A DNA stretch of 64,000 bases, taken from positions 21,579,919 through 21,643,918 of the forward strand of contig CM055279.1 of assembly GCA_029237695.1 (NCBI GenBank), written 5' to 3'. The stretch is from Conchocele bisecta (lineage: Eukaryota; Mollusca; Bivalvia; Lucinida; Thyasiridae). Both the position numbers and the translations under genes were made by a program. Positions 17,007-64,000 of the stretch are shown here, piece after piece; position 1 is the stretch's first letter, and each line of letters starts with the position of its first letter. A model generated the notes under the pieces. The model made no database searches. It saw nothing but the letters and a program-made list of their open reading frames with translations, and was not told the origin of the DNA.

Positions 17007-20000
17007 CAATATTCTATGGCCGTGGTAAAATGACCCACCCCATGTAAAGATTTATTTGTGTTCTTATGGGTCACACTTAATTCTAATTGATAATACAAAG
17101 TTCCGAAAGTGTATGGTATCATGTACAAACATAAGAAACACACTTGGAACCCCCAACACCAGGGAGGGAGGTCAATATTCTATGGCCGTGGTAAAATGAC
17201 CCACCCCCATGTAAAGATTTATTTGGGGGGGGGGGTCAATTTTCTATGGCCGTGGTAAAATGACCCCCCCCCCCCATGTAAAGATTTATTTAGGTTACTA
17301 TGGGTCACAATTAATTCTAATTGTTTATACAAAGTTCCAAAAGTGTATGGTATCATGTACAAACATAAGAAACACACACTTGGAACCCCCAACACCAGGG
17401 AGGGGGGTGGGGGGGGGTCAATATTCTATGGCCGTGGTAAAATGACCCACCCCATGTAAAGATTTATTTGGGTTCTTATGGGTCACAATTAATTCTAATT
17501 GATAATACAAAGTTCCGAAAGTGTATGGTATCATGTACAAACATTAAAAACACACACTTTCACCAGGGTACCGTTTCACTAAACTTCGTACGACTAAAAT
17601 ATTCGTAAGTGCAAATTTAGGATTGTCTGGAAATTTCAATTGATGGATTTACATGTATTGAGCATAGGCTGCATATGCAGCCTATGCTCAATAAATGTAA
17701 GTCCAACAATCGTTGACTAGAAAACATGGTTAATGTGAAATTTGCAGGCCATCATAAGTCATACGAATTTTAGTGAAACGGCCCCCAGAACCGATATATA
17801 TGTACATATATGCAAAACGGCTATAAATGGTCTTAGTAGCTGAATTGTCAATAGTGTCGCTAAAACTTGTATTCTTGTGAACACGTATGGAATGGATCCC
17901 TCATTTTCTAGATCTGAACTAGTTGTAGTATTTTCATGTGGAGGGTTTGCGAAAGGAAGGAAGTAATTCCATCAGCAAATTAGAAACAATTGAGGAGATA
18001 AACTGAACTGCTCCAGAAAATAGGACTCAGATTTGTGTGAATATCAGAATTTTACGGAGCCCCGCATGGGACATGGATTTTTATTTTTATTAATTCGTTC
18101 CCACGGAATATCAATTCGTTCCCTCAATTTAATAATTCGTTCCCTCGAATTAACAATTCGTTCCCACGATATAGCAATTCGTTCCCACGATATAACAATT
18201 CGTTCCCGTGGGAACGAATTGTTATTTCGTGGGAACGAATTGTTAACTTGAGGGAACGAATTGTTAATTTGTGGGAACGAATTGTTAAATTGAGGGAACG
18301 AATTGTTATTTCGTGGGAACGAATTAATAATAAAAAAAAATTCTACGTCCCCTACGGGGCTCCGTAGAATTTTAAAAGACCGGCGACGGCGTGTTATGTG
18401 AAAAATGGACACACATTTTGAAACTAATGTATATCGTACTACTACTACTAGATACATATGTGTTTCCTGAATATTACATTACTTGAAAAATGGTGAATAA
18501 TTACATTTTATTCTCTGAATGATTACTATTATTTACTTGTTTACAGATAGGTCCCAAAGTGGGAACATACATTTTGAACCACCCTGTATACCAGCTTGAA
18601 GTATTATATATTGCAAATGGTATATACTGGCTAACCATTTTTGTCGCATATAATATGCCAATGTGCATGGACATACACATGCTATATTAGTCATGATCGC
18701 CGTTGTTCTATATTTGCCAGCATTGAAGATACACGTGAGCAAGGAGACCCAAAACATTCTCAAGGAGACCGGCAACTACGAGCTGTCTTCTCGCGGCTTC
18801 ACCGACATCAAGGTACCGTAATAACGCAACATATTCGGACACATTTTGTTTTGGGTTAAACCGCTATAAATTAGGGTTTTCCCAAAGCAAATTGTATCCA
18901 AATACATCGTTATTGTGATAAGCAAGTACGACAAAAGTAACTGTGAATATTTGGAAATTCATTGCTGTGAGACACCATATAGTAACATAGCTCCAGATAC
19001 GCTTTGTGTCTAAAGCGTACTATGCCCCCCTGATTTCAAAATCATTGCGTAATCTACTTTTACAAATGCATTATTGATTTTCTTCATTACTAAATAGTGA
19101 ACAAATGATAACAAATATAACAAATTGAAACATTCACTTCTTTGAGCTGCAAAAAGCAAACAGATGCAATATTCATCAACATATTGTTACAGTAATGGTG
19201 AATAAGGATCAGAAAACAAGCTCACAGAGCTTAATATGTGAATTATTCTCCTTGAGTAAAGCATCAGTAAATGGGAATGTGACAAAAATGCATATAATGT
19301 ATACGTATGGAAGTTTTGTTAACTAATTGAAGGAAAAAAAGGAAGATATCCCGAACATGTGCTCCGAACCATTGGCATTGTTCTGAAGTGTTATAACGAT
19401 ACGTGTACTCAACTAGCAGTTGAGCTGCTATTGGTAAGTTACAAGGGAAACATTACAAACCGATCAGTCGCAAGGGCAGTCTCCCGGCATGCAGTGAAAC
19501 GTTTAGAGGCAATGATGAACTCTTAAACCCTTTGGAATACAAGGCTGTTTTCATTGTAGTTTAAGAATTCGCTGCCGTAAATTAGGTTATTAAGGATCGG
19601 TGGACAAGGAAGAGATGACAACTATCGTTGTCTTTGATTTGTACAAAGGGGACATGAAATAATGTAATGCATGTTGCACTGTTAATTATTGATTTCCGGA
19701 ATAAGTCGTAGTTAAGAGCACTACACCCTAGCCGGATACAAGTCAGGGCCCGGTTGTTCAAAACATCAGTTAGCTTAACGGATTGTTAAATCCTTAACTG
19801 AATGGTTAAAATCTCTGTTAAAACAGAGATTTCAACCATTCAGTTAAGGATTTAACAGTCCGTTAAGCTAACGGATGTTTTGAGCAACCGGGCCCAGGAG
19901 AATTGGGCCTTGTCGATTAGTAGCTGTGTAGTAGTATGGTTGTGGTTTACGCCAGTTAACATTTAGTACATTCTTAAACGAGTTAAGGGTTGGGCTGTTT

Positions 20001-23749: not shown

Positions 23750-23811
23750 TGATGGATGTAACTACATGGCAAATTCTAGTGGTGGTAATGACAAGCTACA
23801 CGTTTAAACTT

Positions 23812-24116
23812 CGTTCCCTCAATTTAACAATTCGTTCCCTCAATTTAACAATTCAATTTAACAATTCGTTCCCTCGAATTAACAATTCGTTTCCATGAAA
23901 TAACAATTCGTTCTCTCGCATTGACAATTCGTTCCCACGAAATAACAATTGGTTCCCACGATATAGCAATTCGTTCCCTCGTGGGAACCAATTGTTAATT
24001 CGTAGGAACGAATTGTTAAATTGAGGGAACAAATTGTTATTTCGTGGGAACGAATAGTTATTTCGTGGGAATTAATTTAAAAAAAGAAATTGCTGCGTCC
24101 CCTGTAGGGCTCCGTA
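23812..24116. repeat. Family A foldback, possibly in the cyclase 3' UTR
   Basis: Units begin 63 bases after the stop codon. The left terminal block is missing; the right one is CTGCGTCCCCTGTAGGGC. Confidence 0.9.
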
Positions 24117-27728: not shown

Positions 27729-28253
27729 TACGGAGCCCCGCAGGGGACGTATAATTATTTTTTTTATTAATTCGTTCCCACGAAATAACAATTCGTTCCC
27801 TCAATTTAACAATTCGTTCCAACGAATTGTTATATCGTGGGAACGAATTGTTAATTCGAGGGAACGAATTGTTAAGTTGAGGGAACGAATTGTCATCTCG
27901 TGGGAACTAATTGTTTATTCGCGGGAGTGAATTGTTATATGGAGGGAACGAATTGTTAAATTGATGGAACGAATTGTTTAAACTTTATTTATTTTACAAC
28001 GATTACAAGCAAGCGCGATAGCACTTATACAAATGCTTTCATTAGCACAGATGTGGCGTAAGGGCGGTCATTAATGTGGGAGGAAACCGGAGTACCCGGA
28101 GAAAACCCACCTGTCTGGCGACCACTATACCATCTCACATATTGCCCCTGCCGAGGATCGAACCGGGGCCGCATTGGTGAGAAGCCCGCTCGTTACCGAT
28201 TGCGCTAACCTGAACGAATTGTTATTTCATGGGAACGATTTAATAAAAAAAAT
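27729..28253. repeat. Family A foldback split by a SINE
   Basis: Left terminal block TACGGAGCCCCGCAGGGGAC present. Array interrupted at 27979-28211 and resumes with GAACGAATTGTTATTTCATG. Confidence 0.9.
27979..28211 (-). mobile_element. tRNA-derived SINE
   Basis: On the minus strand the head has box A TAGCGCAATCGG and box B GGTTCGATCC at tRNA spacing, then the widespread core GGGTTTTCTCCGGGTACTCC, and an A-rich 3' end AAAATAAATAAAG. GAACGAATTGTT flanks both sides (27967-27978, 28212-28223), consistent with a target-site duplication, although that word is also part of the host repeat. The core resembles MetaSINE-type invertebrate SINEs (from memory). Confidence 0.88.
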
Positions 28254-36217: not shown

Positions 36218-36428
36218 ATGAAGGAACTATATTTCGCGTGTATTCTGGTGTCAATGTTATGCTACGTGCACAGCAAGCCGAATGGCGCTCCACAGGACTC
36301 GTGTTTCTATATGACACCGCGGCATTTTCATCCACACACGTTTAGAAAAGTCTGGCCGACTCAAGCAAACGGACTTTATAACATAACCACATCGGCGGAC
36401 ATATTTCGTCCTGACCGACCAATCAGAG
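36218..36428 (+). CDS. Reeler gene exon 1 (signal peptide, domain start)
   Basis: Starts at ATG 36218, chosen because it opens a signal peptide. Ends ...DIFRPDRPIR plus one base; donor gtacgt at 36429. Phase 1. Confidence 0.9.
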
Positions 36429-39400: not shown

Positions 39401-42400
39401 ATTTCATTTAGAACTAACGACTGCATATATTTGATGAGTAAAAGAATGCAGAATTATTATACTGAATTTATTACATTATCACAGTGTGATAACGTAATAA
39501 CTTCAGTATAATAAATCCTTAAATTGAAAATTTCTCTCTCAAAGTGTACTCAGCAAGATAAGTATACTTTTCAATGTTGGTGAAATCAGCTACTGGACGC
39601 TTCCATAGTATTGTCACGGTGACTGCAACATTCCGCTGAACCTAATCGTGCACATGTACACGGACTTATTCACGGTCGTTGTACCATCATTGTACGACCA
39701 TCAAATGACAAAGCGGCCAGGTAAATAATATGTTTACATGTTGCGCCTGTCACTCTACACGTAGAGTTGTTCATCAAACGGCACTTAATACCGGACTAGA
39801 CTGACACCTTCTGACATCTACATTTGTATACCCTGTATATTAAGCGTTCCCACAGTTTACCAAAACCTACCTACGTATCTGGTAAAAACAAACAAGGCCT
39901 TGAAAAAACGAAGATACATTTATCTTAAAAACTTCCTCAGGCATTTGTAGTCGGGAAGTTTATAGCATAACTTTAAATTTCCGCCTGCAAACTTTAGAAA
40001 CAAATAAGAAGAGAATATTATAATTAAACTCAGTATGTGTACACTCATGAACGGATATAAAACGCGCCAAGTTCCCAATCAGTTTTCACATTACTTCACC
40101 AGTAAATAGAGTCAAATACGTACAGTGGGGTCAGCGTGTTCCAACCTGTCGTGTTCGTTCGTGTGTGCACTTACACGCTGACCCCACTGTAATTCATGTA
40201 TACAATAAATGTAAATATTTTTATGCATTTTTTCTCATTTCGCATCAAAAGTGTATGTTGTTACCACTCAGTTGAACCGTCTCGGCGAGACGGTTCAACT
40301 GAGTGGTAACAACATACACTTTGGGTGGGTAGCGAACCAACCTGTCGTGTTCGTTCGTGTGTGCACCTACACGCTGACCCCACTGTAATTCATGTATAAA
40401 ATAAATGTAAATATTTTTCTGCATTTTTTCTCATTTCGCATCAAAAGTGTATGTTGTTACCACTCAGTTGAACCGTCTCGGCGAGTTATAATCATTTACT
40501 AATATTTAGTTTGCTGACAGTGACGCGCGGTGGTATCAGGCTATTTTCATATGCAAATGAGGCATGATATTTTTAATTGAATACGTCACCTGAAAAAATA
40601 ATATCTTCGACAGATTATAAATTATGATCATTGCACATCCAAAAATAAATACAGAGAATAAATAGTAATGTCCGTTAACATTTTAAGGAAACACGGTTAA
40701 CGCCCCTGATATCTGTGTGGAAATTTACATCTGATATGAAATGTATAATAATGTCAATCAATACGTGGGGTAATCATGGTAATGGTGAATGCATGTTTAA
40801 TTTGCCAGAATATACAAAACTATCTGTCTCATTTAATAGGTACATTGCAATGCTCCAGATAAGCTGCGTAGTTGCTTAAATACCCAATTAAAATTGCCCA
40901 AAACCAAATTTAAATCAGAAGTAGCGAGTATCAGAAAGCAATAACAATTTTGTGGTACCTTTATCATGCTGCAGAAAACAATAAACAGACCACAAACATA
41001 GCATATTTTTCTTACTTTTCCATGAAAACACATATTGGTATTTCATTTGAATTGTCTCCAAGGAGACAATTCCAATGAAATGCCAAGACATGTTTTCATT
41101 TAGAAGCAAACTATTCAGTAATTGCGGTCTGCTGATGTGTAAACAGTAGTGTGATTTTATTTTAACCAATTACAATTTTGAAATACCCAATTGCTTCAGA
41201 CATGATGGAGTGACAATACTCAAATAGTAATTCCTTATCTGGAGCCTGCATTGTATATGCTACTTGATTGATGTGTATCGTACGCTGTTTCTAAAATATG
41301 GGACAACTTCACTGTGGAACAGCAGGGGGCCGTTTCACTAAACTTCGTACGACTAAAATGTTCGTAAGTGCAAATTTAGAATAGTCTGGAAATTTCAATT
41401 AATTAATTAATTAATTAACTCCAATAATCGTTGACAAGAAAACATTGTTAATGTGAACTTTTCAGACTACCATAAGTTTGTACTTACGAACATTTTAGTC
41501 GTACGAAGTTTAGTGAAACGGACCCCAGGTGTGTGGTACCGGCAATGATAATCCACCATCTATTATTTCAGTGGAACCTCTCTAAACCTCACACAAAGAA
41601 AATATATGTTGAGAGGTTGGTTTCTTGGTAACGCATCACAGATGATAACGCATGTTCATGATTGCAAAAGACATAAGTATTTCCCAGAATGGCCATGTGC
41701 CTGATTAACAGTGGAACCTCTCTAAACCGGACAGCCTGGGGACCTCCCAGCGTGTCCGGTTTAGAGAGTTTTCACCGTATACATTAGTGAACATCTATGA
41801 GTTGTAAAAATCGCAGTTTTATTTTGCACTTAGTTGGAAACGTTATAACCCATGCCAGCTATCACACATGTTACCGTTGTCTACATTAAAGGTGCATGCC
41901 CACTCACTAGGCACAATATGAGCTTTATATCAGAGTCACTATCAGTAAAATAAATGTTACTAAATGATTATATCTGTATAGCGGTGGTGAATAGTAATAC
42001 AAGTTTACACTTATTTAATTCCCATAAAGAACATTTACCTTTAACCATTCGAACCTTCCTTTATATACAGTGACAGTATATATCTGCCAGAAAATAGATG
42101 CTTTCTTAATGAATGTGCAAAGCAACAAGCTATACCATACTTATTACGTTTGTATTGCATACATGTATACTTATTAATATACTATTACATGCTCAGCAAC
42201 TTGGGACAACATGCATTTAATTTTCGTATCCGTTAGTGATACAGTGGAAGCTCTCTAAACCGGACACCCTGGGAGGTCCCCAGGGTGTCCGGTTTAGAGA
42301 GCTTCCACTGTTATAAACAATCAATGACCAATTTGTGTCATTTTCAGTCATGGCGTCCACTGCTATAAACAATAAATGATCAATTCTTGTCATTTTCAGT

Positions 42401-45400
42401 CATGAACAGACAGGACTATGAATAAATTACATGGAAGCCGTCTAAATTAAGCACACAGTGGTCCCCAGGGTTTCGGGTTTAGAGGGGTTCCACTGTACAT
42501 GTAGCAACACTTAACTGCTATCATGTGCGCATCTATTCATTTACATGAATCACCCAATTCATGTAAATGGCAGCCATATTGGATTTCTGCATATTGTATT
42601 CGGTTTCTAACCGACTAATCGAGTTTCGGTAGCGTATCGAGTATTAAATCTTTGACGTTGGTCGGTCTTTGCATTACTATTTTCTAAAACTGCTTTCACA
42701 ATACGGCATGGTGAAAGCAATTTTCAAAATGCAAATAGATAATTATGTTTTTTTCACAACCAGCGGCCCATCTGAGTTTGTCTGAAAACCGTGTCCATAT
42801 TGTTTGCAGTGACCAGTGGCCTAACTGAGTTTGGTTGATACTCATGCCCATACTGTATGTAGTGACGTTATGGGACCCGCCATAAAACAGCGGCCTAACT
42901 GAGTTTGTGTGACACTCATGCCCATATTGTTTGTAGTGACGTTATGGGGCTCGCCATAAATCAGCAGCCTAACTTAGTTTGTGCGATACTTATGCCCATA
43001 TTGTTTGCAGTGACGTTATGGGGCCCGCCATAAATCAGCAGCCTAACTTAGTTTGTGTGATACTTATGCCCATATTGTTTGCAGTGACGTTATGGGGCTC
43101 GCCATAAATCAGCAGCCTAACTGAGTTTGTGCGATACTTATGCCCATATTGTTTGCAGTGACGTTATGGGGCCCGCCATAAATCAGCAGCCTAACTTAGT
43201 TTGTGCGATACTTATGCCATATTGTTTGTAGTGACGTTATGGGGCCCGCCATAAATCAGCAGCCTAAATTAGTTTGTGTGATACTTATGCCCATATTGTT
43301 TGCAGTGACGTTATGGGGCGCGCCATAAACCAGCAGCCTAACCGAGTTTGTGTGACACTCATGCCCATATTGTTTGTAGTGACGTTATGGGGCCCGCCGT
43401 TCAAGGGGTTCATGATAGCGGCGGCCGAGGAGGGCTCAAAGGACTGGCCGAGCGGCATCTTCTACAGCGAGGACGGCGCGGCCAAGCCAATGACGTGCCT
43501 CGGGCGGGGCGACACGGCCACCCACACGAACAACTCGTACAAGGACAGCGTCTCCATACTGTGGTACGGGCCGCAAAACATGCTGTCGGAGCAGGTCCAG
43601 TTTGTGTAAGTATAGAAGCTGGTGTGCATGCTCCAGATAAGGCGCATATTGGCGTATTTTACGCTCTTATTTTAGCTGAATACGCATTGATTATCAACAG
43701 TGGGAGTACAAGCTACTCACAGCAATGTGACAATACGCATTGGTTTTAATATTGAGAAGCGCATGTTCAACTATATTACTGTATAAATAAGTAATACTAC
43801 ACCAGGGCTCCAGATAAGGAATTAATAATTGAGTATTGTCACTCCATCATTTCTGAAGCAATTGGGTATTTCAAAATTGAAATTGTGTAAAATAGAATCA
43901 ACTACTAGATACACATCAGCAGACCGCACTTATTGAATAGTATGCTTCTAAATGAAACACATCTTTGTATTTCATTAGAATTGTCTCCTTGGTGACAATT
44001 CTAATGAAATACCAAGATGTGTTTTCATGGAAAAATAAGAAAATATGCTATATTTGTGGGCTGTTTATTGTTTTCTGCACCATGATAAAGATACCGCAAA
44101 TTTTACATTGCTTTTTGATATTCACTACTTCTGATTTCAATGGATTTTTGGCAATTTTAATTGGGTATTTACGCAAATACGCACCTTATCTGGAGCGCTG
44201 CTACACTGAAATAAGCGAATTGTTAAATTTGTTTTATGGTTTGATCATTTGTTCCCTATTTAATAATAAAGAAAATCAATAATCCATTTGTGAACAAATA
44301 AATACGCATTTATTTTGAGATCCGGGAATACAATACTTTTTAGATACAACGCTTATCTGGAGCTCTGGATGTAACACTTCAGGGGGCCGTTTCACTAAAC
44401 TAAAGTGCAAACTTATGATAGTCTGTAAATTTCATATTAACACTATTTTCTTGTAAACGATTATTGGATTTTCATTTATTGAGCTTAGGCTGCATATGCT
44501 CAATAAATGTAAATCCATCAATCGAAATTTCCAGACGATCCTAAATTTACACTTACGAACATTTTAGTCGTACGAAGTTTAGTGAAACGGGCCTCAGATG
44601 TTCCCATACCGCCCGTACCAGACGTCGATATGAGTATTTGAGTTACTTGTCTGGAGTTATCAACTCTCTGAGCAAGTACAGTCTATGTAAGTATCAAGGT
44701 GTATGATCACGTGGTACTAACAACAACAACAACAAGTACCGATTCAAAGTACGTATTATTTTATAGTGTCCTTATTACGTAACGGATTTTGATGTAATAT
44801 GGCGCATCAAACGCGTCTTGTTAAGTTGCATTTGGTGGTCTTTGTATGTTCGCCCAAACTTCTGTCGTTTTTGCGAATAATCGATTTCCGTGTCTCTGTC
44901 TCCGACACGGAAATCGATTCTTCGCAAAAACGACATAAGTCTGTGCCAAACTCCCTAGACCACCAAATGCAGCTCATGAGGACGCGTTTGATGCGCCATA
45001 TTTCATCAAAATCCGTTACGTAATACGGACACTATAAACGAATACGTACTTTTAATCGGTACGTATTGTTGTTGTTAGTACCACGTGATCATACACCTTG
45101 CATATGGGTGGTGGGGTGTGCCAAATAGCTCTGGAATACGATCCTGCTCAATGTACTGTAGTGGACATGTAGGCGTGTGGCGTGTAATTGTGAAAACGTC
45201 ACTCTCCAAATAAAAGACAGACTATATGGAAGTATTTGAGTTACGTTTGCGAATCTTTAATCAATTTGTGTACAGCATCTTTCCTTGCTCACAGTCATGT
45301 CCATGTTGTACGGCGACAAGGATTTATTTTATTATTTCGTTCCCACGAAATAACAATTCGTTCCCTCGTATTAACAATTCGTTCCCTCGAATTAACAATT

Positions 45401-48400
45401 CGTATTAACAATTCGTTCCCTCGAATTAACAATTCGTTCCCTCGAATTAACATTTCGTTCCCTCAATTTGACAATTCGTTCCCTCGAATTAACAATTCGT
45501 TCCCACGATATAACAATTCGTTCCCACGAATTAACAATTCGTTCCCATGGGAACGAATTGTTATTTCGTAGGAACGAATTGTTAAATTCAGGGAACAAAA
45601 TTGTTATTTCGTGGGAACGAATTGTTCACTTGAGGGAACGAATTGTTAATTCGAGGGAACGAATCTAGTACGTAATTTGTAAACAACAAACATGTTTGTT
45701 ACAGAGCGACAGTGGTGGTGAATAAGTCGATATACTACACGAACATAAAGTCCAACTTCGTTCGACTGGACGCTACGCTTCTTCAAGGTAAGTCACCATA
45801 ATTGTACAGGGCTCCGGATAAGGAATTTGTAATTAAGTATTGTCACTCAATCATTTCTGAAGCAATTTGGTATTTCAAAATTTTAATTGGGTATAATACA
45901 ATCCTACTACTGTTTACACATCAAGAGACATTGTAATGAAATACCAAGATGTGTTATCATGGAAAATAAGAAAAATATGCTATATTTGTGGTCTGTTTAT
46001 TGTTTTCGGCAACATGATAAAGGTACCACAATTTTTTTTTTTTTTTTTATACTTGCTACTTCTGATTTCAATTGGGTCTTTGGCAACTTTAATCGGGTAA
46101 TAATTCCAGCACAAAAATATTTACACAATTCCCTAACATTTGATTGGTCCGTAGCAAGTCTCTGTCCAAAATTTATATCCCAGTAAACTCCCACGCCGAA
46201 CTAGTTTCCGTAACCGTGAGGCGCAGTTAAAATAATTCTTAACAAAACGGAAAATAAACACATTTTCTTGATGAATTTATTTCAAATGCTGGAATTATAA
46301 GGAATGAACGGCCTTTTTTTGGAATTTATCGGGGATATAAACTTGGAAAAGTCGCGGGAATACTGGACGAGGCCTTCCGGCCATCGTCCAGTATTCCCGC
46401 GACTGTTCCAAATTTATACCCCGATAAATTCCACAAAATGGCCATTCATTCCTATAGTAAAGGCACAGGTAGAGACACGGTTTGTCCGCATGTACGGGGA
46501 GATAATTCCAAGTTTATACCCCGATAAATTCCACAAAAAGGCCATTCATTCCTATAGTAGGCACAGTAGAGACACGGTTTGTCCGCATGTACGGAGAGAT
46601 AATTCCAAGTTTATACCCCGATAAATTCCACAAAAAGGCCATTCATTCCTATAGTAAAGGCACAGGTAGAGACACGGTTTGACCGCATGTACGGAGAGAT
46701 AATTCCAAGTTTATACCCCGATAAATTCCACAAAAAGGCCATTCATTCCTATAATAAACATGGCGTCCCTGGTATTACATATACAGCAAAAACTCTCCAA
46801 AGCCCGTGTCCTGGGCAGTCACCATGGTACCCGGTTTGGAGCGGTGTGTTTCGGCTTTCATCGGTAGAACTCTATATATAGTTACGCTCGCTACGAAATT
46901 ACTGATTTATAAAACATTCAATATGTGAACTATAACTATTACATCTAATGTGGCACATACTTACACTGCTTGCATGTGTTTCAAATTGTTATCGATAGTT
47001 AGCACAATCATTGGCACACATCTAGCATCGTTGATCATGCTTCACGATGCTACTAAATAAAGTAAAACACGATTTCATTGTAGACCAAGAAGGCGATTTT
47101 GTAAACATTTTGCATTTAGTTTTGCATTTTAATTGACACATTACACCGAATACAAACTGTACAATGCTTGACTCATGATCACATATATTATTAACATCTG
47201 ACGGAACATCTTCTTCAGAAGGACGATATTCATGCATACTAGACAGCGATTGCCGTTTATTGTATAATCTGGTATATAAATGCCATTCAATTTGTATTCA
47301 TGACTGCTGTAACTATTGTTGTTAATACATATAGCCCGAAACCATTGTCATTATATTACAATATATGATGCATATTCTAAGAAAATACTTTCGTTAAAAC
47401 AAAATGCATATATTATACAGTATACGTGTATATTAAATAACGTCCTGCATTTCATTGACTTTTCCCATGTGCGTGGTATCCTTGCTACAGATTTATCCCG
47501 TCAACACAGTGCGTATCTGCCGTGAAACACGGTGCCGTGAAACATTTTTGATATCCTGCCAATACGACCTAATATCTGCGTGTGAATATGTGCCGTGGCT
47601 GGGGTTATTTTTAGATATTATAGAGAATAGTAGGTTGGTGCCGTGAATGGGAAAAACATCTGGCGCGGCACGGAAACGCGATGTGCTCGGTAGAGCCTCG
47701 CCAACCCGTTTCCTAAGCCTTGCCAGATAGTTTTTCCCATTCACGGCACTAATCTACTATTCTCTATAATATCGCATCCAATAAATGTGTATTATGCATG
47801 CGAATTGTTTAACATGTTATATTACATTCATATCGAATTGCCATCGCGTAGGAGCACCATAAATTGAGAATAGTAGGTTAGTGCCGTGAATGGGAAAAAT
47901 ATCTGGCAAGGCTCAGGAAACGGGATGGGCGAGGCTCTGCCGAGCACATCCTGTTTCCGTGCCGCGCCAGATATGTTTTCCCATTCACGACACTAACCTA
48001 CTATTCTATTTATCCCGTCAACACCTTCAAATGGCTGTAAAATGCAAAAATTGTATTGACTGGATATCAAAAATGTTTCACGGCACCGTGTTTCACGACA
48101 CATACGCACTGTGTTGACGGGATAAGTAGGCCGGTATCTGTGGGCCGTTTCACTAAACTTCGTACGACTAAAATGTTCGTAAGTGTAAAATTATGATAGA
48201 CTGTAAATTGCACATCAACACTGTTTTCTTGTAAACAATTATTGGATTTACATTTATTGAGCATAGGCTGAATATGCAGCCTATGCTCAATAAATGTAAA
48301 TCCATCAATTGAAATTTCTAGACGATCCTAAATTTGCGCTTGCGAACATTTTAGTCGTAAGAAGCTTAGTGAAACGGGCCCCAGGAACATATAGTTCAAT

Positions 48401-51400
48401 ATAAGGTTCGACCATGTCCAACCGTGGGTAAACGTTTGCCGTGGGACGAGTGAACTCTTTGAATCCCAAGGCTGTATGCCGCGGGTTCAAACAGTTCACG
48501 AGTGCCTCCAGCCGTGGGTAAACGTTTGCCGTGGCACGAGGGAACTGTTTGAAGCCCAAGGCCGTAGGCCGCGCGTTTAAACAGTTCCCGAGTGCCACGG
48601 CAAACGTATACCAATGGCTGAACATGGTCAAACGTTATTGTTACATTTCCATTGCTTACTTTGAGAATATTTGCAGTATTTTCGGTACATTGCTCCACTC
48701 AAACAGCTGATTTACACATACATGTACATATTCCGGGGCCACAGTACACGTCGCGTCATTCAGCCGCATCAATTTCAAAATTGCGACCGTTGTCGACTGG
48801 TCTAGTGACGTAATGGCTCGTTCTGAGACACATGCATTACGTTGGTGTTGGCTTGGCCCCGAAATGAGCATTGTCTACAGCACCCACCCACCGTACGGTT
48901 GAACACGGCGGTGAGCGGTGTCGAAAAACGGCAGTCATGTAACAATACAAGGTAGCCAGAACGCGGTCTGGCTAATTGAGTCTTAAAACCTTATTTAATA
49001 AGGAAAACTACTTCATTCGCTTGTAACATTTATTTAGAATACACGTTTCCTTTCATGGACTTGTCAGGGCCGTTTGAAACATTTTGTTCTGTCTATTTTT
49101 GTCATGGAACGATTGGCATGACATAATATCATCGAGCATACGTGCAACTATGGAACAAATGCGATGAACTGTGGACAGGCATTTATCGTCTACACTGTTC
49201 CGTTCTTCGTGTCCTAGTCATTACTGCTACCTCGAATGAACACTTACACAATGCATAAGTGCATGTCGGACTTAGGCTGCACATGCTTGCAATATGATAT
49301 GTAACCACTTTGGTCTCAAACTTAACACAAACATAGTTTGTCATGGTGTCTCATGATTTCACGATGGATAATACTGGGGGCCGTTTCACTAAACATCGTA
49401 CGACTAAAATGTACGTAAGTGCAAATGTTGGATCGTCTGGAAATTACAATTTATGGATTTACATGTATTGAGCATAGGCTGCATATGCAGCCTATGCTCA
49501 ATACATGTAAATCCAGTAAGTGTGTACTAGAAAACATTGTTAATATGAACATTACAGACTATCATAATTTTGCACTTACGAACATTTTAGTCGCACGAAG
49601 TTGAGTGAAACGGCTCCAAGGTGAACAATAGTATGCATCGAGTGTCGATTCTACTACAGTTGCATGCGTCTAACATGGCCCTATAGTTATGTCCCGTCTT
49701 GCCACGTCAAGCGTAAGTTGGTTGGTGTGCGAATAGTATCAAGGTGTATGATCACAATATGTTACAATAACAACAACGAGTACTGAAGCTTATAGAAGCC
49801 CTCCGATTCAAAGAACATATTCTTGTATTCTTACATTTGAGTGGGCAACACTTTCATCCATTGTTGTTGTGGTTGTAACCACGTGATCGTGCACCTTGAG
49901 TTTAACGCCAGATCAGACCGCACGTCTTTGAAGTCTAATCAGGACATACGCCACATCTACTCGAATTTGCCATGACGTCGGGAAACATTGCTAAAGCAGA
50001 TAATAAACAGTTGCCAGTATGTTTTGTTGGAGAAGATCGTACCGAGTTACTAAATAAATACACTCAGTTTGCTCAAAGTCCAGGGGGCGTTTCACTAAAC
50101 TTCGTACGACTAAAATCTTCGTAAGCGCAAATTTAGAATCGTCTGGAAATTTCAATATAGGCTGCATATGCAGCCTATGCAGCCTATGCTCAATAAATGT
50201 AAATCCAATAATTGTTTACAGGAAACACTGTTAATGTGAATTTACAGACTATCATAAGTTTGAACTTACGAACATTATAGTTTAGTTTAGTGAAACGGGC
50301 CCCAGAAGTCTGAGGAAAATCCTTTTTTGTTTGATCAATTGAGTCATTATATACGAAAACATGTATTTGCGACCAATAATTTGACATATTTATCAGTAGA
50401 TTGACTTAACCCTTTCAACCCTAAGGAACTGGAATGGACTGTGACATGCCAATGTTCCGACCAATCCAATGGTCACAAAATGATTTTCAGATTCGTCCAT
50501 TTATGAAAAGGGGGTGTTTTTGTTCTAAAAAATATGAAAATTACGTTCAAAAAGTGCAGATCCTGATGAGACGGCTCGTTACGAGCCGGCTCATCTGGAT
50601 CTGCACTTTTTGCATAAACAGCTATAGCGGGATTTCGGGTTCAAAGGGTTAAGACAGTTTGAGTATGTACTGTAATTCAATATTAAATGTAAATTTGCCG
50701 TGGCAAAATGGGGTATAAAAATGAAGGGTCTATGGAAGAAGGTGCTTAGTCCCTTTCTTCCACTGATCTTTTCAAAAATAATGGGTTCAGTAGAAGAAGG
50801 GAAGTTAGTCCACTGATCCATCCAATTACACACTAAACACAGTGACAATTTGTTTCCAATGCCATCAGGTCAAGCGGGCGCAGAAGGAGGCGCCAACGTG
50901 CTGTCGGCCACCGTGGATCCCTGGCTATCCGATCAGACCATGACTACAGCGGCGCCCTGGGGCGGAAACAGGTGGGGCTCCAGCAACAGATGGGGATCCA
51001 ATACCGGTGGTGGTCGCCGCTGGGATAGAGCTGGAGGCGGTGGAGGCGGCTGGGGAAATTCCCAATCAGGAGGTGGCGGCCGATGGAGGAATTCCCAATC
51101 CGGAGGTGGCGGCGGATGGGGGAATTCCCAGTCCGGAGGCACTTGGGAAAGTACAGGCGGATCTTCCGGCGCGACTTCCGACAGACCTTGGGGAAATTCC
51201 GGCTGGCAGTCACGTGGGCAGGGATCGAGCTGGGAGCAGCCCCCTTCATCTGGTTCCGGCTCAAGTTGGGGATCAAGCGGCGAAAGCTCCAGGGGTCAGC
51301 AGAGTCAATCAAGCTGGGGAAACAATCCCAGTAGTTGGGGCAGCAATCCCACATCGACAGCGACGCCGGCAGATGTCGCTGGCACGACACTGGATACCGG

Positions 51401-51626
51401 CACTGCGAATGCAGCGGTGTATCACGATCACGGTCCGAGCGGGAGCGGCACGCAGACGAGCGGGGGTTCAGTCGGCCCGGTCGGCCCGGTCGGCACTGGC
51501 AGCAGTAGTGACATTTGGAATGTAGTGTCGGGAATGTCGCCGGCCACAATCGCCCGGATGTTGCGCGCGCTGACGTCCGCCGGTGGCTCCGGGACGGCGA
51601 CAACGACAGCGGTGCCGGCCAAGTAG
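36218..51626 (+). CDS. Secreted Reeler-domain protein with RGD motif and Gly/Ser/Trp-rich tail
   Basis: Four exons join in frame (211+226+83+758 nt = 425 residues plus stop). Residues 1-19 form a signal peptide (MKELYFACILVSMLCYVHS). Residues 20-173 match the Reeler fold: GAPQDSCFYMTPRH at the start, VTLWGPPFKGFMIAAA in the middle, QVQFVATVVVNKSIYY near the end, with C29 and C110 placed for the family disulfide. Sequons lie at N55, N121 and N152, and R113-G114-D115 is an RGD tripeptide. Residues 174-425 are Gly/Ser/Asn/Gln-rich with 16 tryptophans, mostly as WG, including an 11-residue repeat around WGNSQSGGGG. Reeler proteins include Hdd11-type insect defence proteins, ferric-chelate-reductase-like proteins and reelin. 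A secreted Reeler with a WG-rich tail could be an immune, adhesive or matrix (shell) protein; the sequence does not decide. No transmembrane segment follows the Reeler domain, so it is not the FRRS1 type. Confidence 0.9.
36484..37273. mobile_element. Family E element split by a G element
   Basis: E runs 36484-36919 and resumes at 37222 (ATGATGTCTCTGACATG). The join matches the unbroken order in 31185-31210 and 53305-53335. In Reeler intron 1. Confidence 0.85.
36920..37221. mobile_element. Family G MITE inside E
   Basis: 302 bp, ends TAGCCTATTTCACC and complement, flanked by CAG on both sides (36917-36919, 37222-37224). Confidence 0.9.
37410..37896. mobile_element. Family C composite carrying an X hairpin
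   Basis: Full C element, then the X hairpin (37747-37819), then a second C terminus, as at 34639-34986. Confidence 0.85.
37930..38095. mobile_element. Family X, left half
   Basis: GGGGCATCGGAACAG ... ATTCATGTATACAAA ... AGTGTATGTTGTTACCACTC; stops before the hairpin turn. Confidence 0.65.
38360..38515. mobile_element. Family U, decayed
   Basis: Holds CATGACGGGCGTTTCACTGA and GGCCCTGATCACGCGCGC blocks related to 14310-14370. Confidence 0.5.
38534..38812. mobile_element. Family C MITE
   Basis: Both modules; the right terminus is replaced by an F end. Confidence 0.85.
38813..38860. mobile_element. Family F, right end
   Basis: CAGTCCTTGTTGTTGTTG to CACGTGATCATACACCTTG, directly joined to C. 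Confidence 0.75.
39028..39312. repeat. Family R foldback, complete
   Basis: Inverted ends TGGTGCCAATGGTAAAATAT and complement (39294-39312) around about 11 units of 21 bp based on CCTAATTAGG in both orientations. Confidence 0.9.
39315..39592. mobile_element. Family G MITE
   Basis: Starts 2 bases after R. The central hairpin is shortened (ATTATCACAGTGTGATAACG). Confidence 0.87.
39593..40120. other. Reeler intron 1, nothing recognised
   Basis: No repeat family or frame seen. Confidence 0.5.
40121..40193. mobile_element. Family D, left arm deleted
   Basis: TACAGTGGGGTCAGCGTGTT joins directly to CCAACCTGTCGTGTTCG; the right arm is complete. Confidence 0.85.
40196..40325. mobile_element. Family X element
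   Basis: TTCATGTATACAATAAATG lead, then a hairpin with perfect 30-base arms AAAGTGTATGTTGTTACCAC around CGTCTCGGCGAGACG. Confidence 0.85.
40333..40389. mobile_element. Family D, right arm
   Basis: GAACCAACCTGTCGTGTTCG to CCCCACTGTAA. Starts a duplicated D-X segment of about 196 bp. Confidence 0.8.
40391..40489. mobile_element. Family X, truncated
   Basis: Repeats 40196-40292 almost exactly and stops at CGTCTCGGCGAG, where an E fragment begins. Confidence 0.8.
40490..40812. mobile_element. Family E, internal fragment
   Basis: TATAATCATTTACTAATATT to TTTAATTTGCCAGAAT. Confidence 0.78.
40852..41247. mobile_element. Family L foldback
   Basis: Ends GCTCCAGATAAG and CTTATCTGGAGC; TACCCAATT...GAAATACC blocks and centre AATTGTCTCCAAGGAGACAA. 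Confidence 0.85.
41327..41527. mobile_element. Family B MITE, centre deleted
   Basis: The central palindrome is replaced by (AATT)n. Confidence 0.88.
41569..41781. mobile_element. Family H element
   Basis: CAGTGGAACCTCTCTAAACC at both sides, spacer with CATGTTCATGATTGCAAA. Confidence 0.8.
41885..42044. mobile_element. Family E, terminal fragments fused
   Basis: Left end TTAAAGGTGCATGCCCACTC joins inverted interior and ends AACATTTACCTTTAA. Confidence 0.7.
42240..42312. mobile_element. Family H palindrome, perfect
   Basis: ACAGTGGAAGCTCTCTAAAC and complement around CTGGGAGGTCCCCAG. Confidence 0.9.
42438..42497. mobile_element. Family H palindrome, decayed
   Basis: TCTAAATTAAGCACACAGTG against GGTTTAGAGGGGTTCCACTG. 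Confidence 0.65.
42798..43379 (+). repeat. 74-bp tandem array duplicating a 3' splice site
   Basis: TGACGTTATGGG starts at 42863, 42937, 43011, 43085, 43159, 43232 and 43306, and the eighth, at 43380, is the true exon 2 start. A diverged unit precedes at 42810. Each unit is about 55 bases of intron end (CCCATATTGTTTG(C/T)AG) plus the first 19 exon bases, then CATAAA. Spacing is 74 bases (once 73). Confidence 0.95.
43380..43605 (+). CDS. Reeler gene exon 2 (core, RGD loop)
   Basis: Acceptor ttgtttgtag ends at 43379; donor gtaagt at 43606. Restores V71 across the junction and reads TLWGPPFKGFMIAAAEEG...MTCLGRGDTATH...MLSEQVQF. The first 19 bases are also present in each upstream tandem unit (42863-43324). 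GC-rich compared with the surrounding intron. Confidence 0.93.
43806..44202. mobile_element. Family L foldback
   Basis: GGCTCCAGATAAGGAATTAA to CCTTATCTGGAGCG with centre AATTGTCTCCTTGGTGACAA. In Reeler intron 2. Confidence 0.87.
44382..44594. mobile_element. Family B MITE
   Basis: Left CGTACGAC block deleted; centre half lost (TGCATATGCTCAATAAATG). Confidence 0.88.
44695..45100. mobile_element. Family F element, complete
   Basis: 406 bp, CAAGGTGTATGATCACGTGG at left and exact complement at right; centre CGTGTCTCTGTCTCCGACACG. Confidence 0.9.
45320..45666. repeat. Family A foldback without terminal blocks
   Basis: About 11 forward and 5 inverted units; turns over at CGTTCCCATGGGAACG. It ends 38 bases before Reeler exon 3. 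Confidence 0.9.
45705..45787 (+). CDS. Reeler gene exon 3 (last strand of the domain)
   Basis: Acceptor ttgttacag ends at 45704; donor gtaagt at 45788. Reads V-ATVVVNKSIYYTNIKSNF then VRLDATLLQ. Phase 2 in, phase 1 out. The intronic family A foldback ends about 40 bases upstream. Confidence 0.92.
45812..46097. mobile_element. Family L, truncated by J
   Basis: GGGCTCCGGATAAGGAATTT left end, then inverted arm to AACTTTAATCGGGTA. T18 run at 46030. Confidence 0.8.
46098..46757. mobile_element. Family J element with amplified right arm
   Basis: Complete J to about 46458, then three more copies of the arm CCAAGTTTATACCCCGATAA...CATTCATTCCTATAGTA separated by GAGACACGGTTTG.CCGCAT, spacing about 96-104 bp. 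Confidence 0.88.
46758..47490. other. Reeler intron 3, nothing recognised
   Basis: AT-rich; a 71-codon minus frame (47022-47237) lacks known motifs. Confidence 0.5.
47491..47767. mobile_element. Family C MITE
   Basis: CCCGTCAACAC module shortened (loses its own right end at TTATTTTTAGATATT), palindrome module complete. Confidence 0.85.
47867..48126. mobile_element. Family C MITE
   Basis: Near-identical to 6188-6449, including the internal deletion, so a close relative. Confidence 0.88.
48144..48382. mobile_element. Family B MITE
   Basis: Complete, 18 bases after C. Confidence 0.93.
48396..48640. mobile_element. Family W foldback
   Basis: TTCGACCATGTCCAACCGTG with inverted GTGCCACGGCAAACG blocks; more diverged than 11560-11905. 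Confidence 0.82.
48730..48868. repeat. Hairpin with CCGGGGCC ends following W
   Basis: ATATTCCGGGGCCA and TGGCCCCGAAATGAGCATT bound an interior unlike 11990-12118 except for GTGACGTAATG. Confidence 0.65.
48869..49374. other. Reeler intron 3, nothing recognised
   Basis: Only a weak GTAGCCAGAACGCGGTCTGG hairpin near 48950. Confidence 0.5.
49375..49618. mobile_element. Family B MITE
   Basis: Complete; arms use TACATGTATTGAGCAT. Confidence 0.92.
49740..49898. mobile_element. Family F, internally deleted
   Basis: Both ends present; about 250 bases of the centre missing. Confidence 0.8.
50082..50304. mobile_element. Family B MITE
   Basis: Left inner arm deleted; GCAGCCTATGCAGCCTATG is duplicated at the centre. 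Confidence 0.9.
50408..50653. mobile_element. Family I foldback
   Basis: TTAACCCTTTCAACCC to GGTTCAAAGGGTTAA, exact inverted ends; about 215 bases upstream of Reeler exon 4. Confidence 0.9.
50869..51626 (+). CDS. Reeler gene exon 4 (Gly/Ser/Trp-rich tail)
   Basis: Acceptor gccatcag ends at 50868; stop TAG at 51624-51626. After GQAGAEGGANVLSATVDPW come repeated WG/WGSN blocks and three 33-bp repeats (about 51047-51142) coding WGNSQSGGGG-like units, then a more hydrophobic end (IWNVVSGMSPATIARML). GC-rich and CpG-rich, so spurious long frames also open on the opposite strand. Confidence 0.9.
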
Positions 51627-54099: not shown

Positions 54100-54735
54100 T
54101 TTACGGACCACCGCAGGGGACGTAAAATTCGTTTTTTTATTAATTTGTTCCCACGAAATAACAATTCGTTCCCATGAAATAACAATTCGTTCCCTCAATT
54201 TAACAATTCGTTCCCAAAAAGATAACAATTCGTTCCCACGAATTAACAATTCGTTCCCTCAATTGAACAATTCGTTCCCACGAAATAACAATTCGTTCCG
54301 ACGGGAACGAATTGTTAATTCGTGGGAATGATTTGTTATAACGTGGAAACGAATTGTTTCGGTGGAACGAATTGTTAAATTGAGGGAATGAATAGTTATT
54401 TCGTGGGAACGAATTGTTAATTCGAGGGAACGAATTGTTATACCGTGGGAACGAATTGTTAATTCGAGGGAACGAATTGTTAAATTGAGGGAACGAATTG
54501 TTATTTCGTGGGAACGAATTAATAAACTAGATGGCCGCGGCCTGCATGTCGCGCCTTGTGGCAGGCATGGACACTAACAAAAGAGATATAGTATAACGAA
54601 AAACTTTAACCAAAAAACTTTAACCAAACACTTTAACCGGACACACGTACGTACGTACGCCAAAGTGCCGACTATATCGCGCTTTCCGACGCGGGCGCGA
54701 CACAAACATTCCATGTCCCTACGGGGCTCCATAGT
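54100..54735. repeat. Family A foldback with insertion near right end
   Basis: TTACGGACCACCGCAGGGGAC at left; right terminal CATGTCCCTACGGGGCTCC at 54711-54735, displaced by about 185 bases of unrelated sequence (from CTAGATGGCCGCGGCC). Eight forward and nine inverted units. Confidence 0.88.
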
Positions 54736-61080: not shown

Positions 61081-61556
61081 GTTTGTTTGTTGGTGTTTAA
61101 CGGCCTATCAACAGCTAACGGCCAACGGGTTCGATTCCGTATTTAACCTGCTACATTGGGGGGAAAATCCAAAAATCAGAACGGAATGTTTACATTGCGA
61201 AAAATGTATATTCAGCCCTGAAATTAGAATAACCTGAATTGGTGACAGGTCCATACCACACAAGAATGCCAAAGACATCTGAGGGCCAAACCAGTCTCCA
61301 GTCGGGATGAAAAGTGAAAAGGGAAATGGTTTAACATCCCAGCTAAGGTCATATAGAGACGAGGACATCAGTTTAAAGTCTCGTCCGACAGACGAGTGGG
61401 ATGGAAATACTATGAAAGTTGTTTGGTGCCACAACCTCCGGAGTGGAAGTCAGGTGTTCTAACCCCTAGGTCACAACCCATCCCCACCGGTAAGGATGAA
61501 CCCCGAACGTCAAAATACCTATCACATGCTCCCAGCCACCCACCACTACTGGCACT
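61081..61556 (-). mobile_element. Family V SINE-like retroposon with nested SINE
   Basis: On the plus strand (TGTTTGTT)n then GGTGTTTAACGGCCTATCAA, GGGTTCGATTCC, ... to CCAGCCACCCACCACTACTG. Interrupted at about 61310-61487. Confidence 0.8.
61310..61487 (-). mobile_element. Second SINE-like insertion
   Basis: Minus strand starts GGGGATGGGTTGTGACCTAG with a box-A-like GACCTAGGGGTTAG, box-B-like GGAGGTTGTGG, and 3' end TGACCTTAGCTGGGATGTTA-AACCA, an end shared with V. Confidence 0.65.
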
Positions 61557-64000
61557 ACATGCAGGTAAGTAGCATGAATCCTGATTGTCAAAATACCTAT
61601 CACATGTTCCCAGCCACCCACCACTACTGACACTACATGCAGGTAAGTAGGATGAATCCTGATTGTCAAAATACCTATCACATGCTCCCAGCCACCCACC
61701 ACTACTGACACTACATGCAGGTAAGTAGCATGAATCCAGATTGTCAAAATACCTATCACATGTTCCCAGCCACCCACCACTACTGGCACTACATGCAGGT
61801 AAGTAGGATGAATCCTGATTGTCAAAATACCTATCACATGCTCCCAGCCACCCACCACTACTGACACTACATGCAGGTAAGTAGCATGAATCCAGATTGT
61901 CAAAATACCTATCACATGTTCCCAGCCACCCACCACTACTGGCACGACATGCAGGTAAGTAGGATGAATCCTGATTGTCAAAATACCTATCACATGTTCC
62001 CAGCCACCCACCACTACTGACACTACATGCAGGTAAGTAGGATGAATCCTGATTGTCAAAATACCTTCAGATACTATGCACATTGTCATCCACACACTAC
62101 TGGCGTACATGCAGGTAAGTAGGATGAATCTGATTGTCAAAATACCTATCACATGTCCCAGCCACCCACACTACTGGCGCTACATGCAGGTAAGTAGGAT
62201 GAATCCTGATTGTCAAAATACCTATCACTATCACAGCTTCCCAGCCACCCACATACTGACACTACATGCAGGTATAGGATGAATCCTGATTGTCCAAAAT
62301 ACCTATCACGATTGCTCCCAAAAGCCACCCACCACCTACCTGACACTACAATCAGGTAAGTTTAGCCCATGAACCAGATTGTCCCAAAATACCTATCACA
62401 TGTTCCCCACCCACCCAACCACTAAACGGGCACTCACATGCAGGTAAGTAGGATGAATCCTGAATTGTCAAAATACCTATCACATGCTTTCCCACCACCC
62501 ACCACTACTGACCACCCTACCATGCCAGGTAAGTAGCAAGGAATACAGATTGTCAAAATACCTATCACATGTTCCCAGGCCAACCCACCACTAACTGGCA
62601 CGACATGCAGGTAAGTAAGGAAATAAATCCTGATTGTCAAAATACCTTATCACCATGTTCCCTAGCCCACCCACCACTACTGACCACCAACCAATGCAAG
62701 GTAAGTAGGAATAATCCTGATTGTCAAAATACCTATCACATGTTCCCAAGCCACCCACCACTACTGGCGCTACATAGTCAGGTAAGTAGGATGAATCCTG
62801 ATTGTCAAAATACCTATCACCATGTCCACAGCCACCCACCACTACTGGGCGCTACAGCAGGAAGTTGGATTGAATCCCTGATTGTCCAAAATACCCTAAT
62901 CACCATGTCCCAGCCACCCACCACTACTGGCGCTAACATGCGGTAAAGTAGGATAATCCTGATTGTCAAAATACCTATCACATGGCTCCCAAGCCACCCA
63001 CCACTACTGGAACACTCACATGCGATATGTAGGTGAAATCCTGATTGTCAAAAGACTAATCCACATGTTCCCAAGCCACCCACCACTACTGACACTACCC
63101 ATTGCAGGTAAAGTAGGATAATCCGGATTGTCCCAAAATACCTTTCAACATGTTCCCAGCCACCCACCACTACTGACACACATGCAGGTAATAGATGAAT
63201 CCTGATTGAAAATCCTATGTTCCCATACCTATCACCATTCAAAACCACACAGTTTCCCACCACCCACCACTACTGACTCAATGCAGGTAATAGATGAATC
63301 CTATTGCAAAATACCTATGCACTCCCAGCCTGACACCTACACTGACACTACATCAGGTAAGTAGGATGAATCCTGATTGTCAAAACCTATCACTGCTCCC
63401 AGCCACCCACCACTGACACTACATGCAGGTAAGTAGGAGAATCCCGATTGTCAAAACCTATCACATCCCAGCCACCCACCACTACTGGCGATACATGCAG
63501 GTAAGTAGCATGAATCCTGATTGTCAAAAAATTTACATATCACATGTCAGCCTACCACAACTACCTGGACCACCCACACTACTGAAATTCCATTGCATTT
63601 ACAGTTAGCAATGAATCAGATTGTCCAAAAATTACCTATCCTGCTCCCAGCCTCCCAACCACCTACTGGCATACATGCAGGTCTCAGTAGCATGTAATCC
63701 ACAGATTGTCATTAAATACCTATCACATGTTCCCAGCCACCCACCACTAACTGACACTACATGCAGGTAAGTAGGATGAATCCTGATTGTCAAAATACCT
63801 ATCACATGCTCCCAGCCACCCACCACTACTGACACTACATGCAGGTCAGTAGGATGAATCCAGATTGTCAAAATACCTATCACATGCTCCCAGCCACCCA
63901 CCACTACTGGCACTACATGCAGGTAAGTAGCATGAATCCAGATTGTCAAAATACCTATCACATGCTCCCAGCCACCCACCACTACTGACACTACATGCAG
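61490..64000 (-). repeat. 78-bp satellite derived from the V head
   Basis: More than 30 units to the window edge. Plus-strand unit: GGATGAATCCTGATTGTCAA, AATACCTATCACATG, CTCCCAGCCACCCACCACTA, CTGACACTACATGCAG, GTAAGTA. The same sequence, in the same order, forms the 5' head of the adjacent V element. 78 is divisible by 3, so a 228-codon minus frame opens (61466-62152) without being a gene. Confidence 0.95.

Follow-up and report, generated by a model that had tools for sequence, protein, structure and literature searches.

In human CBS, the allele c.844_845ins68 duplicates a junction segment made of 52 nt from the end of intron 7 and 16 nt from the start of exon 8 (PMC7490669). The more distal of the resulting sites is strongly favoured according to PMC2630376, which writes “splice donor” for what is an acceptor and places a TGGGGT at c.834_839, and another transcript reportedly appears only as nuclear traces (PMC1334203). 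The element described here is of the same kind: a minisatellite of nine copies across the junction of intron 1 and exon 2 of a Reeler-domain gene in the bivalve Conchocele bisecta (Thyasiridae; assembly GCA_029237695.1, contig CM055279.1, forward-strand positions 21,579,919 to 21,643,918, a stretch of 64,000 nt that we call the window and in which all coordinates are given).

The parallel between the array and CBS 844ins68 is close in anatomy. Both set a 3' splice junction in tandem, with 52 + 16 nt per unit in CBS and 55 + 19 nt in the array, and both have a G run near the start of the duplicated exon sequence, TGGGGT in CBS and GGGG from exon base 10 in the array; G runs are reportedly involved in the splicing of human CBS 844ins68, to go by the title of a paper. 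The two systems differ in that CBS has one extra copy, known as a human polymorphism, whereas the array has eight extra copies in one assembly, the outer ones markedly diverged, and in that splicing was measured in CBS while the array is known from sequence alone. A first-pass annotation of the window, which knew of no described case of this sort, needs correcting by the two-copy human allele, although that allele is not a minisatellite.

Three further systems can be compared. A 31-bp variable number of tandem repeats in human CBS is reportedly linked with reduced CBS activity (so the title of Lievers et al. 2001). It is said to span an exon/intron border and to multiply donor sites, and would thus be a minisatellite like the array, but one of donor and not of acceptor sites. 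Poison exons, the substrates of splicing coupled to nonsense-mediated decay (NMD), are cassettes with both splice sites and are often conserved; use of a decoy in the array would likewise give an early stop, but neither the cassette form with both sites nor conservation is shown for the array. The decoy exons of OGT and SF3B1 are recognisable intronic splice sites that are rarely spliced in (PMC12017769); they are exon-like and have donors, whereas the array has acceptors only, apparently gained by tandem duplication. Prawn lectins were considered as a precedent and set aside, their repeats lying inside exon 2 and their alternative acceptor in exon 5 (PMC7536079). Our literature search found no multi-copy minisatellite of 3' splice sites, with narrow terms and few subscription journals, so that absence from print does not follow. 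What remains unusual is that as many as eight decoys have accumulated in a gene of which the genome search revealed no close second copy.

Minisatellites consist of head-to-tail units of about 10–100 bp, and the array is built of head-to-tail copies of a 74-bp unit (Tandem Repeats Finder: period 74, 7.9 copies, 92% matches, 42819–43398). Delimiting copies by their acceptors gives nine, namely eight decoys (u0–u7) and the true acceptor (u8). The first-pass annotation was right in reading the unit as a duplicated 3' splice junction and gave the first exonic bases of seven decoys and of the true site exactly; all seven are real, and it missed an eighth at 42810 in the shortened first copy. Four of its seven decoys end in CAG, as it said, or five of the eight with the additional one. 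Within each unit, intron end, AG and exon start follow in native order, as in a junction duplication of the CBS 844ins68 type. Along the array the acceptors are spaced by 53, 74, 74, 74, 74, 73, 74 and 74 nt; because the first spacing is 53 instead of 74, the first copy must have lost 21 bp, directly after its acceptor.

AG followed by TGAC is retained in all nine copies. Copies u1–u8 have a branch-like CTTAT or CTCAT 18–19 nt upstream of the AG (8/8; 7/7 of the decoys u1–u7), and all but one have a branch-like CTAAC 38–39 nt upstream (7/8; six of the seven decoys u1–u7). A G run starts at exon base 10 in u1–u8, reading GGGA in u1 and GGGG in the other seven. The most diverged copy, u0, has none of the CTAAC, CTTAT and CTCAT motifs and no G run. 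GC content is highest in exon 2 (0.63), intermediate in the array (0.46) and lowest in intron 1 (0.38).

Only use of the last acceptor leaves the gene intact. When the four coding exons are joined by script via the true acceptor, they give an open frame of 1278 nt (425 aa) with GT-AG borders in all three introns and no frame break. Exons 1–3 encode a full-length Reeler domain (PF02014, profile positions 1–131 of 131; 83 bits against a cut-off of 21, E 3.5e-23), and the last copy is the only one of the nine acceptors that yields both the open frame and the full domain. Exon 1 has 211 nt and ends in phase 1, in agreement with the earlier annotation. Spliced to it by script, decoys u1–u7 all read VTLW(G/D)(P/S/A)P and then TAA, which bears out the peptide predicted for them, VTLW(G/D)xP, in 7/7 cases; decoy u0 reads VTSGLTEFG and then TGA. 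The TAA sits at the joint between units and is present because the coding start there runs into intron sequence; 74 is not a multiple of three. As a rule, NMD requires more than about 50 nt between a stop and a junction downstream of it. All eight decoy stops lie beyond that distance, 277–767 nt upstream of the exon 2–3 junction, as the stop of a poison exon would. The exon opened by a decoy acceptor measures 300–796 nt, against 226 nt from the true site.

Table 1. Positions of the array, its copies and the coding exons of the Reeler gene in the window
Feature	Position	Strand	Description
Nine-copy minisatellite	42755..43398	+	Full unit 74 bp: 55 nt of intron 1 end and 19 nt of exon 2 start
u0	42755..42813	+	Decoy CAG, first exonic base 42810, stop TGA; shortened
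u1	42814..42881	+	Decoy TAG, first exonic base 42863; first six bases gone with the u0 deletion
u2	42882..42955	+	Decoy TAG, first exonic base 42937; nearest to the true copy
u3	42956..43029	+	Decoy CAG, first exonic base 43011
u4	43030..43103	+	Decoy CAG, first exonic base 43085
u5	43104..43177	+	Decoy CAG, first exonic base 43159
u6	43178..43250	+	Decoy TAG, first exonic base 43232; 73 bp after loss of one C
u7	43251..43324	+	Decoy CAG, first exonic base 43306; no CTAAC branch-like motif
u8	43325..43398	+	True junction, TAG; exon 2 starts at 43380
Exon 1, coding part	36218..36428	+	Start codon, N-terminus, start of Reeler domain; donor GAG|GTACGT
Exon 2	43380..43605	+	226 nt, GC 0.63; middle of Reeler domain; donor TGT|GTAAGT
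Exon 3	45705..45787	+	End of Reeler domain
Exon 4	50869..51626	+	Gly/Ser/Trp-rich C-terminus, stop TAG

We think it probable that the array is a tolerated passenger, a minisatellite spanning the junction that splicing mostly ignores, with some leakage to NMD. The native intron 1/exon 2 junction would have been duplicated in tandem and have grown into a minisatellite, the middle of which expanded later. By exon definition, the spliceosome would normally pick the last copy, because this is the only copy followed by a short, GC-rich exon (226 nt) that has a donor nearby; the upstream copies would open onto 300–796 nt that include AT-richer, intron-like units, and the G run at exon base 10 of u1–u8 may add to the choice of the last copy. 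Leaky use of a decoy would lead to a stop and to removal of the mRNA by NMD, and the copy number of the array would be free to drift. This reading agrees with the intact 425-aa frame and complete Reeler domain obtained through the last copy, with decoy exons longer than exon 2 and a GC content highest in exon 2, and with the lack of a close gene copy beside diverged outer copies (u0 and u1) and inner ones that look recently expanded. The distal site is likewise favoured in the two-copy human CBS case, the layout of which is near-identical (PMC7490669 and PMC2630376).

Several points weigh against it. On approximate vertebrate-style matrices, which serve here and below for gross comparison only, splice-site strength is not in favour of the true acceptor: its score is 3.78, while those of the eight decoys range from 1.41 to 5.48, with five above it, two level and one below. 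In the array, the stretch leading up to the AG is a weak tract, which could make the choice leaky; judged from residues only, the tracts of three relatives (P0004, P0005 and P0010) appear T-richer. The G run is found in decoys u1–u7 and in the true copy alike and cannot by itself discriminate between them. Exon definition and NMD are both transferred from other animals, and we infer that the factors at work in CBS may act in this bivalve. The first-pass annotation had thought that decoys might outscore the true acceptor; five of the eight do, but this is nothing special, since 56 of the 325 AGs of intron 1 (first 40 nt excluded) equal or exceed the score of the true site, among them 49 that belong to no decoy. 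Because of these 49, use of the true site cannot be explained by local score alone, array or no array.

An RNA hairpin that hides the decoys was also considered. CCCAUA and UAUGGG in the units can form a stem around the AG, but in the five of nine copies that were folded the z-scores run from −0.65 to 0.43, showing no more structure than expected by chance. In a wider fold, the unpaired probability around the AG is 0.014 at the true site and 0.001–0.009 at the eight decoys; the true site is the least closed, yet every value is near zero, and we give this explanation no weight.

The copies themselves record something of the history of the array. Among copies u3–u7 the mean difference is 3.4%, against 9.2% between them and the true copy, which fits a recent expansion of the inner copies; u2 differs from the true copy at 4 of 74 positions, u1 at 9 of 68 (13%) and u0 at 14 of 59 (24%). 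With no rate calibrated, these distances fit an older duplication followed by a later expansion of the middle of the array, and, because u0 and u1 have diverged so far, the decoys and the gene have probably coexisted for long. Tandem repeats cover 9.4% of positions 1–61492 with the 74-bp array left out (Tandem Repeats Finder rows, merged by hand); for this reason the chance that some tandem repeat touches at least one of the gene's six junctions is about 0.45, which is not improbable.

With a 131-base query from the end of the array, a search of the 1.89-Gb assembly gave at least 8 matches, all within the array, and no second place with an array among the matches listed. We therefore reject an origin from a dispersed repeat, the unit matching only the array in the window and, among the matches listed, in the genome; moreover, VTLWGPPFKGF is Reeler domain sequence, common to relatives. 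The 173-aa domain has three matches in the genome at E ≤ 0.01, all of them exons of the Reeler gene itself, so that no close paralogue that could stand in for the gene is apparent. A Reeler profile search finds the gene and four more distant loci (L014–L017), and since none of these has a 74-bp array within the 3.2–3.3 kb examined at each, a paralogue carrying the array is rejected as well. One of them, L016, has a 24-bp repeat inside its Reeler match and a 29-bp array after it.

Protein relatives of the gene are found in Potamilus (65% identity over 92% of the query), Gigantidas (50%, 88%), Mytilus (46%, 91%) and Pinctada (34%, 82%); a search of solved structures by sequence gave no match at E ≤ 0.1. 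The exon-1 frames of relatives P0006–P0009 match through RPIRG or a variant of it and diverge after, and the reading frames of the relatives are consistent with the same phase-1 exon 1/2 junction. Five exon-2 frames of relatives extend into the intron, by 135 nt in P0004, 72 in P0005, 54 in P0010, 30 in P0012 and 9 in P0015, P0004 thus being the only relative with readable intron longer than one unit and the four others offering 9–72 nt. No preceding unit occurs in the 135 nt of intron end of P0004 (best tblastn match to the array region E 6.1), and the array peptide as query finds no relative at E ≤ 10. The N-terminus encoded by exon 1 resembles a signal peptide by eye. The reading frame around exon 4 has no Pfam family at E ≤ 1; exon 4 also contains a 33-bp coding repeat, rich in Gly and Trp, at 51035–51139.

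The strongest rival of the passenger reading, though in our judgement an unlikely one, is that the array acts like a poison exon, as a sink that is either regulated or dependent on copy number: a sizeable share of transcripts would go to the decoys and be degraded on account of the stop, and allele length would set the output. The positions of all eight decoy stops would suit it, as would the scores, at which seven of the eight decoys equal or exceed the true site; the apparent recent expansion of the inner copies also makes variation in copy number probable. The analysis, however, detected no conservation beyond chance in the decoy features: variable columns make up 14 of the 55 intron-derived and 2 of the 19 exon-derived ones (Fisher p 0.21, u0 excluded and the start of u1 masked), counting the shortened end of u1, again with u0 excluded, gives p 0.13 and no significant difference, and unchanged AG columns are expected by chance at the observed divergence (P about 0.61). 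We thus have no evidence for selection keeping the decoys, the sites being few and the power accordingly little, and none for the earlier proposal that copy number tunes a poison-exon-like output. The stops are a consequence of the joint between units and of a unit length not divisible by 3, the one relative with more than a unit length of readable intron has no unit, and the two-copy human analogue is nearly silent (PMC2630376 and PMC1334203). Cassette poison exons in particular look unlikely, although the matrix is rough: no donor-like site in the array scores above 3.3, close to but below the gene's weakest donor (4.6). Slighter again is the chance that this mutable minisatellite of splice sites works as a heritable rheostat, each unit adding an acceptor with a stop and array length setting the productive splicing of a single gene in a natural population. 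Such regulatory readings of the decoys are possible, and it is the anatomy of the array that speaks for them.

It is improbable that the gene is mostly mis-spliced and being lost, with the array as the damage: a weak tract and eight competitors would fit this, but all four exons keep their GT-AG borders and an unbroken frame, and the outer copies look old, so lasting damage should have broken the exons. About as improbable is a role in intron detention, in which early splicing complexes would form on decoys that are not themselves spliced and intron 1 would be retained or detained, as with the OGT and SF3B1 decoy exons, which are recognised and rarely spliced in; a 5' splice site is important for the OGT decoy (PMC12017769), whereas donor-like sites in the array reach 3.3 at best, and no more than 1.9 where they recur. 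The gene's own donors score 8.8, 4.6 and 11.9, the array's best being near the weakest of these. We give very little credence to the repeats acting as DNA, for example as an intronic enhancer with a cluster of bZIP-like TGACG half sites: TGACG, which we take to resemble a CRE/ATF half site, occurs in 8/9 copies (u0 has TGACC), but it is the plain start of the coding exon. An assembly error that collapsed or inflated the repeat is just as improbable, for although there is a single assembly and one genomic place, no two copies are identical, differing by substitutions and one 1-bp gap, and the array is only 0.64 kb long.

Other repeats occur in the window. A 78-bp minisatellite whose unit has a perfect donor motif, CAGGTAAGT, fills 61493–64000 and continues to L012:1389; on the + strand the motif has 19 exact copies in the window part of this minisatellite and one elsewhere in the window, and no exon was identified there, no search having been aimed at exons. 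A 21-bp unit (AATTCGTTCCCACGAATTAAC and variants) forms arrays at 1804–2115, 3338–3657, 18092–18325, 23803–24071, 27769–27980, 45336–45664 and 54142–54520. Six of these seven are followed by their reverse complement, so that fold-back is possible, and the array at 45336–45664 ends about 40 nt upstream of exon 3. Short inverted-repeat elements in introns 1 and 2 (42250–42310, 41690–41770 and 44850–44950) look by eye like small non-autonomous transposons.

The array is thus a higher-copy variant of a known junction duplication, and a natural test of 3' splice-site choice, not a demonstrated mechanism. Nine similar 3' splice sites before one exon form a natural competition experiment, and because the inner copies and the last one differ little locally, the choice among them should depend mainly on position or on the downstream exon. 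With RNA reads of the Reeler gene, the fidelity of splicing could be measured where acceptors are nearly equal, and any alleles that differ in length would reveal whether it matters how many acceptors compete. The locus suggests that the expansion of a repeat across a splice junction is tolerable in a gene that stays intact.
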